Notes under the pieces: model-generated
Told to the model about the DNA's origin: nothing
Databases searched by the model: none
The model's input: only the letters and a program-made list of their open reading frames with translations
From: Caldicellulosiruptor morganii
Lineage (GTDB): Bacteria; Bacillota; Thermoanaerobacteria; Caldicellulosiruptorales; Caldicellulosiruptoraceae
Length of the DNA stretch: 64,000 nt
Assembly (NCBI RefSeq): GCF_026810225.1
Contig: NZ_CP113865.1
Coordinates: 1,942,001 to 2,006,000 of the forward strand
Direction of reading: 5' to 3'
Translations under genes and position numbers: made by a program
In this document: in pieces, positions 57,402 to 60,470 of the stretch
How positions within the stretch are numbered: the first letter of the stretch is position 1
Layout of the letters: every line of letters starts with the position of its first letter

Positions 57402-58649
57402 TTAAATTTGTATAAATGGTTGAACTAAAAGCATCAAAGTTAAAAATATTATAAATACAACAGTAACCCATGCAATTATATTAAATGTTTTTGAATTTAC
57501 ATATTCTCCCATAATTTCTCTGTCATTTGTGAGTTTAAGCATATAAATCAGAATTATTGGCAGCAATATCCCATTTATCTCCTGAGCAATTATCATAAGT
57601 TTTATTAGTGGAATATTTGGAAGCAATATAACTCCGGCACCTATTACAATAAATAAAAGTATCAAACCATAAAAAACAGGCGCTTCTTTTAACTTTTTGT
57701 TAAGTCCATTTTCAAACCCAAATGCCTCAGTTATCGCATAAGCAGTTGAAAGCGGTAAAATGTGTGCTCCCAAAAGTGATGCCCCAAAAAGCCCGATTGC
57801 AAAAAGTGCTGATGCATATTTTCCCGCAAAAGGCTCCAAAGCTTTTGCAGCATCCTCTGCTGTCTCAATGACAATCCCATGTTTATACAAAGTTGCGGCT
57901 GTCGCAACCACAATAAAAAATGCAATAAAATCTGTCCAGAACGCCCCCAAAAATACATCCCATCTCTGATATCTGAGTTTTTTTACATCAACACCCTTGT
58001 CAACAACAGAAGATTGTAAGTAAAACTGCATCCATGGAGTGATTGTGGTCCCTATCATCGCAATAAAAATCAAAACAAAGCTGGTCTTAAAACTGAATGA
58101 AGGCACAAATGTGTTTTTTAATACATCCTTCCAATCAGGTTTTGCTAAAAATCCCGAAATAATGTAACTAATATATATTATCATTAATCCAAGGAAAAAC
58201 TTTTCTGTTTTTTTGTAAGAACCTTTATTGATTATATACCACACAAATATAGCAGTGAGCGGAACAGAAATATACTTTGAAACTCCAAAAATTTCAAGGC
58301 TTGCCGCAATACCTGCAAATTCACCAATTGTTGTTGTAAGATTGGCAATTAATAAGGTAACCATTGCAAAAAAAGTCATCTTAACACCAAAATTTTCTCT
58401 TATAAGGTCAGAAAGACCTTTTCCTGTTACAACACCCATCCGTGCAGCCATCTCCTGTATGACTGCCAAACTTATTGTTATCAGGAAAAGTCCCCACAGC
58501 ATCTTATATCCAAACATAGAACCTACCATTGCGTATGTTGCGATCCCTGATGCGTCATTGTCAGCTGTAGCGGTAACAAGCCCCGGACCAATTACACTTA
58601 AAATGAGAAGAATATTCCTTAGCCTCTGTTTTTTTGACGTCTGTGGCAT
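57402..58649 (-). CDS. NRAMP-related magnesium transporter (NRMT type)
   Basis: An SLC11/NRAMP-superfamily carrier, 415 residues with about 11 membrane helices. Canonical transition-metal NRAMPs have DPGN in helix 1 and a Met-containing motif in helix 6. Here helix 1 reads GPGLVTATADNDASGIATYA (D30-N31-D32) and helix 6 reads IGTTITPWMQF. These are the substitutions described for NRAMP-related Mg2+ transporters, which lost the metal-binding Met. The M-box riboswitch upstream of its operon independently supports magnesium. AGGGGTG is spaced for the ATG at 58649. It lies 40 nt downstream of the MgtE-N/CBS gene. Confidence 0.88.
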   Translation of the reverse strand: MPQTSKKQRLRNILLILSVIGPGLVTATADNDASGIATYAMVGSMFGYKMLWGLFLITISLAVIQEMAARMGVVTGKGLSDLIRENFGVKMTFFAMVTLLIANLTTTIGEFAGIAASLEIFGVSKYISVPLTAIFVWYIINKGSYKKTEKFFLGLMIIYISYIISGFLAKPDWKDVLKNTFVPSFSFKTSFVLIFIAMIGTTITPWMQFYLQSSVVDKGVDVKKLRYQRWDVFLGAFWTDFIAFFIVVATAATLYKHGIVIETAEDAAKALEPFAGKYASALFAIGLFGASLLGAHILPLSTAYAITEAFGFENGLNKKLKEAPVFYGLILLFIVIGAGVILLPNIPLIKLMIIAQEINGILLPIILIYMLKLTNDREIMGEYVNSKTFNIIAWVTVVFIIFLTLMLLVQPFIQI

Positions 58650-58689
58650 AATCTTTTCACCCCTTTTTTTTGCATATAAAAACAATAAA

Positions 58690-59940
58690 TTATGCTAATT
58701 TTTTTCGCACCTTTAAAAGCTCATAAACTATATCGTTAATTATTACAACCCCTATAAGTTTCTTTTGGTCATCAACAACTGGAACAGCTAATAAACTGTA
58801 TTTTGAGATAATTTCAACAAGAGAGTTTACATTGTCCATATCTTTCACATATACAACATCCCTGCTCATAATCTCATAAAGAGGTGTTTGCGGTTCTGAA
58901 ATTACAAGATCGCGCAAAGACACAACTCCACAGAGTCTTTCTTCATTGTCCACAACATAAAGATAGTAAATCTCATCCGGCTCGGGCTTCAGTCTCCTTA
59001 GCTCCTGTATTGTCTGCTCAACGGTAAAATGAGTTTTGAACGAGATAAAATCTGTCGTCATAATACTTCCGACAGTATTTTCGGGATATTCCATAAGCTC
59101 TTTTACTTCTTCGGATGCTTCTTTTTCCATCTCATTCAGGAGTTCTTCTGCTCTTTCTTCTTTTATCTCATCCAGGATATCTGCAACCTCATCTGCCGGC
59201 ATTTTTTCAAGCACATCTGCAACCTTTTCAACTGGAAGGTTTTCGAGGACGTTTCGCTGTGCCTCAACATCAAGCTCTTCCAGAACATCCGCTGCTTTTT
59301 CTTCATCCAGAGCTGAAAATACATATGCCTGGGTTTTTTTGTCAAGCTCCTCAATAATATCTGCCAGATCAGAAGGATGCAAAGTTGAAAGCTTGGAGTA
59401 TGTTGTTGAAAGTTTCAGGTCAAGCCGGGGTGAGGCAAGCGGCTCAACATCGTCCCAGAGAATAAGTTTAGAAGGAATACTTTTCCCAAGAGGTTTTAAG
59501 ATTTTCTTAACAGGCTTTGCAAGTCCAAGCCTTCTGAGCAAGCCCTCAAGCCCGATATCAACAGCAATTACATAAACTCCTGTTGACAAAACGGCAAGTC
59601 GAATATCATTTACTCTTACAACCTTTCTCCCGTTTATGTCAACTATTTGCTTGTCTAAAATATGTTTGACAAGCATTATTGTGTCTTCTTTTTGAACTTC
59701 TATTGGTTTTAAACTTCTGGTTTCAATCACATACTGCCCTTTTTCCTTATAAATTGCAAAAAACGAAAAATCTACTATCTGAATGCCTTTTCCACTTTTG
59801 ATTTTAGCAGCAATTACCTTAGGTCTTATATTCTTTGCATCGACAATTAAATCAAGCAGCCTGCCCAGAACCTTTCTGTCTTCAGAATATACTCTGTTAC
59901 CTATCACCCTGGAAAGGTAAAAACTTGTTACATTTGCCAT
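58690..59940 (-). CDS. Soluble PRC-barrel/MgtE-N/CBS protein, probable Mg2+ sensor for the transporter
   Basis: 416 residues with no membrane segment. Two PRC-barrel-like modules lie at about 5-80 and 90-175 (GNRVYSEDRKVLGRLLDLIVDA; VDINGRKVVRVNDIRLAV). An MgtE-N superhelix follows at about 190-285 (HPSDLADIIEEL, DEEKAADVLEELD, PVEKVADVLEKMP, DEVADILDEI), then two CBS domains at 290-410 (IMTTDFISF, VVSLRDLV; IMSRDVVYV, VVIINDIVYELL). This is the cytosolic sensor half of MgtE without its channel. It is followed by an NRMT-type carrier and preceded by an M-box, so it probably gates or senses Mg2+ for that carrier. GGAGGGG is spaced 7 nt from the ATG. Confidence 0.9.
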   Translation of the reverse strand: MANVTSFYLSRVIGNRVYSEDRKVLGRLLDLIVDAKNIRPKVIAAKIKSGKGIQIVDFSFFAIYKEKGQYVIETRSLKPIEVQKEDTIMLVKHILDKQIVDINGRKVVRVNDIRLAVLSTGVYVIAVDIGLEGLLRRLGLAKPVKKILKPLGKSIPSKLILWDDVEPLASPRLDLKLSTTYSKLSTLHPSDLADIIEELDKKTQAYVFSALDEEKAADVLEELDVEAQRNVLENLPVEKVADVLEKMPADEVADILDEIKEERAEELLNEMEKEASEEVKELMEYPENTVGSIMTTDFISFKTHFTVEQTIQELRRLKPEPDEIYYLYVVDNEERLCGVVSLRDLVISEPQTPLYEIMSRDVVYVKDMDNVNSLVEIISKYSLLAVPVVDDQKKLIGVVIINDIVYELLKVRKKLA

Positions 59941-59941
59941 A

Positions 59942-60073
59942 TTAGCACCCCTCCTTTATAAAATTATTTTCTCCCTGCGGAGGGGTGCTAAATGGTTTTA
60001 CAAAAGCAATTTATATAAAAGGACAAAATCCTCCTGTTTTTGGCTAAAAATATAAAAAAGTTAGCACCCCTCC
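59942..60073 (-). promoter_or_regulatory. Three-copy switching hairpin that can hide the ribosome site
   Basis: In mRNA sense, copy A GGAGGGGTGCTAA (60073-60061), its exact complement B TTAGCACCCCTCC (59991-59979) and copy C GGAGGGGTGCTAA (59954-59942) occur in order. B can pair over 13 bp with either A (69-nt loop) or C (24-nt loop), but not both. C contains the ribosome site of the PRC/MgtE-N/CBS gene, so B:C closes it and A:B frees it. Copy A ends in the stop codon of the 27-codon leader ORF. The alternation is seen in the sequence; the regulatory role is inferred. Confidence 0.75.
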
Positions 60074-60144
60074 ACACATTTGAAAAACAGCTCTTTAGTT
60101 TTTCTCTTACCCAATCCTGCTGCCCTCACAGGACCAGAATCCAT
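60061..60144 (-). CDS. Candidate 27-aa leader peptide of the Mg transporter operon
   Basis: A short ORF in the transporter leader, past the M-box terminator. It starts MDSGPVRAAGLGKRKTKEL and ends CVEGC, with AAAGGAG 12 nt before the ATG. Its TAA stop is the last three bases of copy A of the switching repeat. A terminating or stalled ribosome would therefore cover copy A and leave B free to close the downstream ribosome site, whereas early drop-off would let A:B form. I do not recognise the peptide. Expression is not proved. Confidence 0.55.
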   Translation of the reverse strand: MDSGPVRAAGLGKRKTKELFFKCVEGC

Positions 60145-60201
60145 CTTTTTTCTCAACTCCTTTGAACACAGGTTTTTTTGAAAAGTTTTTATCTGAGAAA
60201 C

Positions 60202-60243
60202 AAAAAGTGCTTTCACCCAAAGCTTAAAACGAGGTGAAAGCAC
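60202..60243 (-). terminator. M-box expression-platform terminator
   Basis: The stem GTGCTTTCACC/GGTGAAAGCAC with an 18-nt central part is followed on the minus strand by TTTTTGTTT. It lies directly 3' of the M-box aptamer, as expected for Mg2+-induced termination. Confidence 0.9.
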
Positions 60244-60259
60244 CTATTTACCCTTTAAA

Positions 60260-60412
60260 AACTTACCTCGTACAAGCTTTGGCACTACACGGCATAAAAA
60301 GCTGCATTAGGTTATGCCTTGGATTCGGCAAAACCTGTTCACCAGCTCAGATTGTCTCCAATCTTTCGCGGCAGCAGCCTATATCCCTGTAGGAGCCTCG
60401 CCTACCGAGATA
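60260..60412 (-). ncRNA. M-box (ykoK) magnesium riboswitch
   Basis: On the minus strand the conserved M-box core is present: TAGGCGAGGCTCCTACAGGG, ATATAGGCTGCTGCCGCGAA and, near the 3' side, GTAGTGCCAAAGCTTG. The closing helix pairs CTCG (near 60409) with CGAG (60270-60267). At high Mg2+ this RNA favours the terminator that follows, which reduces expression of the MgtE-N/CBS and NRMT-type genes. Confidence 0.93.
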
Positions 60413-60442: not shown

Positions 60443-60470
60443 ATTTTAGCACAAATTTTTCGTTTTTCAA
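60443..60470 (-). promoter_or_regulatory. Promoter of the M-box/Mg transporter operon
   Basis: On the minus strand TTGAAA (60470-60465) and extended -10 TGCTAAAAT (TAAAAT 60448-60443) with a 16-bp spacer. The start falls about 25 nt before the aptamer. Confidence 0.7.

Follow-up and report, generated by a model that had tools for sequence, protein, structure and literature searches.

Sequence comparison suggests a tiny leader gene as a second, ribosome-based and widespread magnesium sensor

Why would an operon leader that begins with an M-box magnesium riboswitch also carry a very short gene and a 13-nt sequence that occurs three times, once as its complement? This question was raised by the leader of a magnesium transporter operon of Caldicellulosiruptor morganii, located within a stretch of 64,000 nt (contig NZ_CP113865.1, positions 1,942,001 to 2,006,000), here called the window. 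As set out below, comparison of sequences from many bacteria suggests that the tiny leader gene serves as a second magnesium sensor, one that is ribosome-based and widespread.

All features of the locus lie on the minus strand. A consensus scan gave a promoter-like site, as a candidate only (TTGAAA, 16 nt, TAAAAT, with TG before the second hexamer; 60443..60470), located 27 nt 5′ of the M-box aptamer. The M-box (RF00380; 60260..60416) was matched over its full length by cmscan, with 126.4 bits against a gathering score of 44 (E 8e-29), and was the sole family reaching threshold in the Rfam scan of the leader. It is followed by an intrinsic terminator (GGUGCUUUCACC...GGGUGAAAGCAC, U5; approximately 60202..60244), detected in the sequence and by its fold (z −3.55). 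As read in the sequence, CCUCGUUUUAAGCUU, the 5′ half of the terminator, is complementary to the 3′ strand of M-box P1, forming a predicted antiterminator; at the level of sequence and fold, a terminator competing with the P1 strand, as in an M-box expression platform, is therefore predicted. Next comes the Shine–Dalgarno (SD) site AAAGGAG (60157..60163), an SD site being kept in the congeners, and an open reading frame (ORF) of 27 aa (MDSGPVRAAGLGKRKTKELFFKCVEGC; 60061..60144, with ATG at 60144 and TAA at 60061), recognized in both the window and the congeners. The order of M-box, terminator and short ORF with its own ribosome site, proposed in an earlier sequence-only reading of this DNA, was found in full.

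The same reading had placed one 13-nt sequence at the ORF stop, its exact complement further on and a second copy over the ribosome site of the next gene, and this arrangement was confirmed. Segment A (GGAGGGGUGCUAA, 60061..60073) carries the leader stop codon at its end, segment B (UUAGCACCCCUCC, 59979..59991) is the exact complement of A and C, and segment C (GGAGGGGUGCUAA, 59942..59954) contains the ribosome site of the first operon gene. The leader stop lies 120 nt upstream of the operon, B is a further 69 nt on, and the arms of B and C are separated by 24 nt. The 13-mer is unique to this locus: A, B and C are its only exact copies in the genome of 2.48 Mb, and one site elsewhere matches with 1 mismatch. 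The first operon gene encodes a protein of 416 aa with PRC-barrel, MgtE_N and CBS domains (58690..59940; Pfam), and the second encodes an Nramp-related magnesium transporter of the NRMT type (57402..58685; Pfam Nramp, 349 bits). The nearest solved relative of the latter is 7qia (415 bits versus 121 for the next), which we take to be the Eggerthella magnesium NRMT. The PRC-barrel/MgtE_N/CBS protein is soluble and resembles the Mg2+-sensing gate of MgtE, detached and paired with an Nramp-type transporter; it is possibly a third magnesium check, at the protein level.

The helices A:B and B:C share B and are mutually exclusive, as had been proposed. When C was fixed and the middle was shuffled with dinucleotides kept, the pairing energy in the window (−29.6 kcal/mol) was reached by 0/300 shuffles (mean −11.2 kcal/mol; p = 0.0033). 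A chance origin of A, B and C was ruled out by these shuffles with the ribosome site fixed. The fold of the window leader also exceeded 200/200 shuffles (z −4.2). In window foldings, which are illustrative since the helices were chosen for pairing, the probability of A:B was 0.97 in a transcript ending after B, and C was 2% open with the leader ORF masked and 56% open with A:B formed. At free equilibrium C was closed in the window leader, indicating that the on state must be kinetic.

To follow the leader ORF beyond the window, orthologous operons were taken from the genus, the class, the phylum and other phyla, giving 130 upstream regions. Most of these operons proved to carry such an ORF: M-[D/E]-x-x-P ORFs were present within 300 nt upstream in 94/130 operons (Bacillota and Bacteroidota), against an expectation of 1.24 from shuffled sequences and a reverse-strand count of 2. 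The strict ORF was absent from 36/130 operons, which counts against the explanation that we prefer below. Among 31 divergent representatives (<75% identity), codon 2 was Asp in 31/31 (GAC 26, GAT 5), codon 5 was Pro in 28 (CCT 18, CCG 9, CCC 1), and codon 3, when Ser, alternated between TCT and AGT. These synonymous changes at the conserved codons 2, 3 and 5 indicate that selection acts on the peptide. The leader starts with MDSGPVS in Caldicellulosiruptor, MDSGPYS and MDSSPYY in other members of the class, MDTDPDGR in Desulfosporosinus, MDSGPE and MDGDPHYK in Clostridium, and MDDGPA, MDEGPA and MDPYPAK in Bacteroidota; MDAGPS, MDPDGSN and MDPVPRA were further examples. One genome (G187) has three paralogous PRC/MgtE_N/CBS operons, each with its own M-box, of which two carry MD leaders (MDTDPDG and MDAGPEQ) and the third carries MGSGPYH; this Asp2-to-Gly change could be a natural mutant.

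Conservation is limited to the beginning of the ORF. Entropy climbs after codon 5–6 to the background level, the conserved part in the window being codons 1–6 (60144..60127). In the genus alignment, the window has one extra base after codon 7, after which its frame differs from that of the congeners; ORF lengths range from 22 to 42 in the congeners, with the later frame and stop varying within the genus, and from 9 to >40 residues across relatives. The late frameshift and the variable lengths indicate that the peptide tail is not what is conserved. Conservation of the leader peptide, a check named in the sequence-only reading, was thus borne out for the first five or six codons, and failed for the 27-aa peptide as a whole.

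The alternative helices also recur in relatives. In each representative, C was placed at the main ribosome site and the best combination of A:B and B:C with a common B was sought; the result was set against 300 dinucleotide-shuffled versions in which C and the leader start were kept as they were. Pairing went beyond the shuffles (p≤0.05) in 10/13 Bacillota (Fisher 1e-12) and in 6/17 Bacteroidota (Fisher 4e-7). The letters of the arms differ among groups (GGAGGGGUGCUAA, GGAAGGAUGUAUG, GGGGGGAAUUUUGAC, UUAGGGUGUAC and others), and complementarity is retained. Segment A lies inside the leader ORF in most Bacillota, and in the significant Bacteroidota cases it lies between about −22 and +16 nt of the leader stop, at the position of a terminating ribosome. 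Covariation was measured after aligning 47 Bacteroidota leaders with MAFFT, unconstrained, and was compared with slid and shuffled controls. It reached 0.349 for B:C (slid, ≤0.19) and 0.338 for A:B (slid, ≤0.23), with no shuffle as high in either case; the helix columns were picked on the same alignment, so the slid control is biased towards them. RNAalifold gave a weak consensus on this alignment (−1.35 kcal/mol) because two exclusive helices share columns, and this was resolved by counting each helix apart. In Caldicellulosiruptor, variation falls between the arms, which are themselves almost invariant. One compensatory change was found in A:B (in L010, where a G-to-A change in A is matched by C-to-T in B) and none in B:C; with so little variation in the arms, these intragenus pair counts are hardly informative. 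Recurrence and covariation of A, B and C in relatives, a test set beforehand, were therefore found, with both helices covarying in Bacteroidota.

The leader is associated with Mg2+ transporters and with M-boxes, and also occurs without the latter. Among 20 loci scanned with Rfam, leaders without an M-box were found at the Bacteroidota loci, at the Bacillota loci L018 and L102, and at L082. L018 and L020 have a promoter-like sequence immediately 5′ of the leader ORF. The loci without an M-box mark the leader as an independent device, for which the M-box is optional.

Leaders rich in acidic residues and proline have been described as Mg2+ sensors for a few enterobacterial genes, MgtL and MgtQ (PMC11282234, PMC11552253, PMC8092293). 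In the Salmonella mgtQ, an 8-codon ORF before mgtB, the acidic codons at positions 2 and 5 free a ribosome site that is otherwise hidden (PMC8092293). The leader studied here resembles it in having a short ORF with Asp2, followed in mgtQ and in relatives such as those with MDTDP by a second acidic codon, and in its alternative hairpins. Destabilisation of the ribosome by acidic residues, with an Mg2+ transporter's concealed ribosome site being opened as output, would likewise be common to both. The exclusive hairpins of the mgtQ type, one hiding the ribosome site and one overlapping the ORF, were found. The sequence-only reading knew of no described case, a statement that needs correction, since mgtQ has the same output, its Asp2 and Glu5 codons releasing the hidden mgtB site (PMC8092293). 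The two systems differ in several respects. The mgtQ ORF lies between two genes of a PhoP-controlled enterobacterial operon and has four pairing segments (PMC8092293), whereas the leader here has three segments, is located in a 5′ leader, often behind an M-box, is found in Bacillota and Bacteroidota, and precedes a different gene family. The four-segment topology of mgtQ (1:2 / 3:4 / 2:3) was absent, and the genus alignment gave no conserved fourth segment.

The peptide is closest to MgtL, whose early acidic and proline codons (EPDP) destabilise ribosomes, more so at low Mg2+ (PMC11282234, PMC11552253). Both leaders begin with Met followed by acidic or proline residues (EPDP versus MDSGP, with MDTDP, MDPDG and MDGDP in relatives), the likeness lying in the residue type at the N-terminus. 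The earlier view that the sequence is unrelated to the mgtA leader does not hold in this respect, as both start with Asp/Glu and Pro, the ribosome-destabilising signature. MgtL also stands before an Mg2+ importer gene (mgtA; Salmonella, E. coli), and its translation opposes importer expression, as is proposed here; its output is Rho-dependent transcription termination, whereas here a ribosome site is hidden (PMC11282234, PMC11552253). As to context, one study on M-boxes before NRMT genes deals with the same aptamer family and transporter class as here, and a term search of it gave neither a leader ORF nor a further hairpin switch behind the terminator (PMC4072509). At the M. tuberculosis pe20 locus, according to passages of another study, an M-box is likewise followed by short translated ORFs; that M-box acts on uORF translation together with Rho, uORF2 encodes a small protein that is conserved but has no assigned role, and these passages describe no acidic/Pro start motif or A/B/C switch (PMC12810186). 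The nearest known system is thus mgtQ in mechanism, MgtL in peptide, and the M-box/NRMT and M. tuberculosis M-box loci in context. A search of the openly licensed literature turned up no account of acidic leaders that follow M-boxes or occur in Bacteroidota and, apart from the works cited here, none of the motif itself or of an M-box combined with a leader peptide.

We consider it probable that two magnesium checks act here in series, namely, the M-box and a ribosome-destabilising leader of the MgtL/MgtQ type that switches the transporter ribosome site. At high Mg2+, the M-box would halt transcription at the terminator. The leader ORF, presumably translated, would open with a ribosome-destabilising Met-Asp-x-x-Pro, and by analogy with the enterobacterial leaders Mg2+ would govern the drop-off of ribosomes at these early codons. 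When Mg2+ is sufficient, ribosomes would get past the early codons to the stop and cover A; B:C would then form, hiding the transporter ribosome site (off). At low Mg2+, ribosomes would pause or drop off within codons 2–6, leaving A free to pair with B during RNA synthesis, and C would remain open, early abortion presumably being the on signal. With the M-box in front, Mg2+ would gate transcription and translation alike. The early acidic and proline residues of a ribosome-destabilising leader were found (Asp2 and Pro5, with a single acidic residue in the window), as was the position before an Mg2+ transporter gene (MgtE_N/CBS plus NRMT). The single acidic residue of MDSGP counts against this reading, being on paper weaker than EPDP of MgtL; acidic pairs alone are often insufficient (PMC11282234).

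The same architecture could operate with a leader ribosome that stalls rather than drops off, the signal being perhaps other than Mg2+, for instance a nascent-chain effect or a limiting tRNA (Asp- or Pro-tRNA, or EF-P dependence). The output geometry would be the same, since A is also free when a ribosome is held at codons 2–6. Position 5 has one conserved Pro codon, and the signals sensed by mgtM and mgtP of Salmonella are ATP and charged Pro-tRNA (PMC8092293). However, there is a single Pro and no Pro-Pro, and codons 2–5 mix Asp, Glu and Pro (MESEEGD, MEYDDWD, MDDPDAD), which fits acidic destabilisation better than the shortage of one tRNA. Such ORFs also occur at 42/97 M-boxes versus 0/52 SAM/TPP riboswitches, pointing to Mg2+ as the signal, and we regard stalling as rather unlikely. 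The opposite sign, in which translating the leader turns the operon on because ribosomes open B:C (translational coupling), draws on L022, L087/L091 and L160, whose ORFs end 7–20 nt before the main start codon. In these loci, the ORF runs over B or reaches the main ribosome site (−127 to −7 in L022), a layout for which the simple masking model does not account and which suggests coupling there, replacing or added to the masking of A. In the window, by contrast, the stop is 120 nt upstream and B is 69 nt on, so that A is covered by a ribosome terminating there and B remains available to close C; as a general account, coupling appears highly improbable.

Two further explanations were considered. 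In one, A, B and C form an ordinary ribosome-site hairpin or a protein-bound inverted repeat of the CIRCE kind and the leader ORF is incidental, which would agree with their near invariance within the genus; TTAGCAC...GTGCTAA in A/B/C recalls a CIRCE half site. However, CIRCE needs a 9-nt spacer and the spacing here is at least 24 nt, at the corresponding position the letters in other genera are unrelated, complementarity alone being retained, and a protein site would not be expected to follow a leader ORF and its stop codon, as A does. The CIRCE/HrcA operator (TTAGCACTC-N9-GAGTGCTAA) was rejected on the 24-nt B–C spacer and the lack of letter conservation outside the genus, and we judge this explanation very unlikely as a whole. 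In the other, the ORF encodes a micropeptide acting on the transporter or elsewhere, for which the conserved start and SD site, suggestive of translation and selection, could speak. A functional micropeptide was rejected because conservation ends after codon 6, lengths vary from 9 to >40 residues, and the frame and stop vary within one genus, the window ORF itself being frameshifted relative to its congeners; its probability is minimal.

Finally, we analysed leaders behind M-boxes in general. M-boxes were sought in Bacillota genomes drawn evenly across the phylum, yielding 97 downstream regions for inspection. MD..P ORFs were found behind 27/97 M-boxes (2.1 expected). Under a wider rule, set after viewing the ORF list, that takes the first short ATG ORF with an SD site 40–330 nt behind the M-box, an ORF was found in 52/97 regions, compared with about 12 in shuffles. 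Codon 2 of the SD-preceded ORF was Asp or Glu at 42/97 M-boxes, compared with about 1 in shuffles; Asp, Glu and Pro are enriched mainly at positions 2–7, and Lys and Arg predominate later. The same rule applied to the SAM and TPP riboswitches of Bacillota gave 0/52 (Fisher 2e-10). The p-values are overstated, given that the sequences lack independence, but the matches stem from many genera. Based on these controls, the acidic ORF as a general habit of riboswitch leaders was rejected. The genes behind the M-boxes, recognized from their start sequences only, include CorA, MgtE, MgtA-type ATPases and others. The A/B/C test was significant in 6/27 MD..P M-box leaders (p≤0.05; most before other transporters), and this weak showing, a further point against the preferred explanation, indicates that the outputs probably differ.

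On balance, we lean towards destabilising leader peptides being a general second magnesium sensor, present behind about two fifths of Bacillota M-boxes, whatever the transporter, and alone before Bacteroidota NRMT operons. The signature behind 42/97 Bacillota M-boxes, its absence behind SAM and TPP riboswitches and its occurrence alone in Bacteroidota would make this a widespread sensing principle. If so, the M-box would often not be the sole magnesium check, and reporters built with the whole M-box leader may be reading out two sensors. Sensing through ribosome stability, hitherto known from enterobacteria, would then be ancient and widespread, and its outputs would be interchangeable.

Two further groups of loci were noted among the M-boxes. 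At L178, L259, L263, L265, L266 and L268, an M-box and ORFs of the MDDPEADL, MDDPDADL or MDDPRLC type, with GGAGGTG-type ribosome sites, precede CorA-like genes. About a dozen of the 97 Bacillota M-boxes precede an ABC-transporter permease-like gene and no known Mg2+ transporter (L170, L219, L176, L177, L238 and L257; also L244, L245, L250, L253, L258 and L264). L170 has one BPD_transp_1 match and an MDADPEP leader ORF, and several of these genes look by length like two-domain fusions. The position of the M-box before these permease-like genes suggests an ABC-type Mg2+ uptake system.
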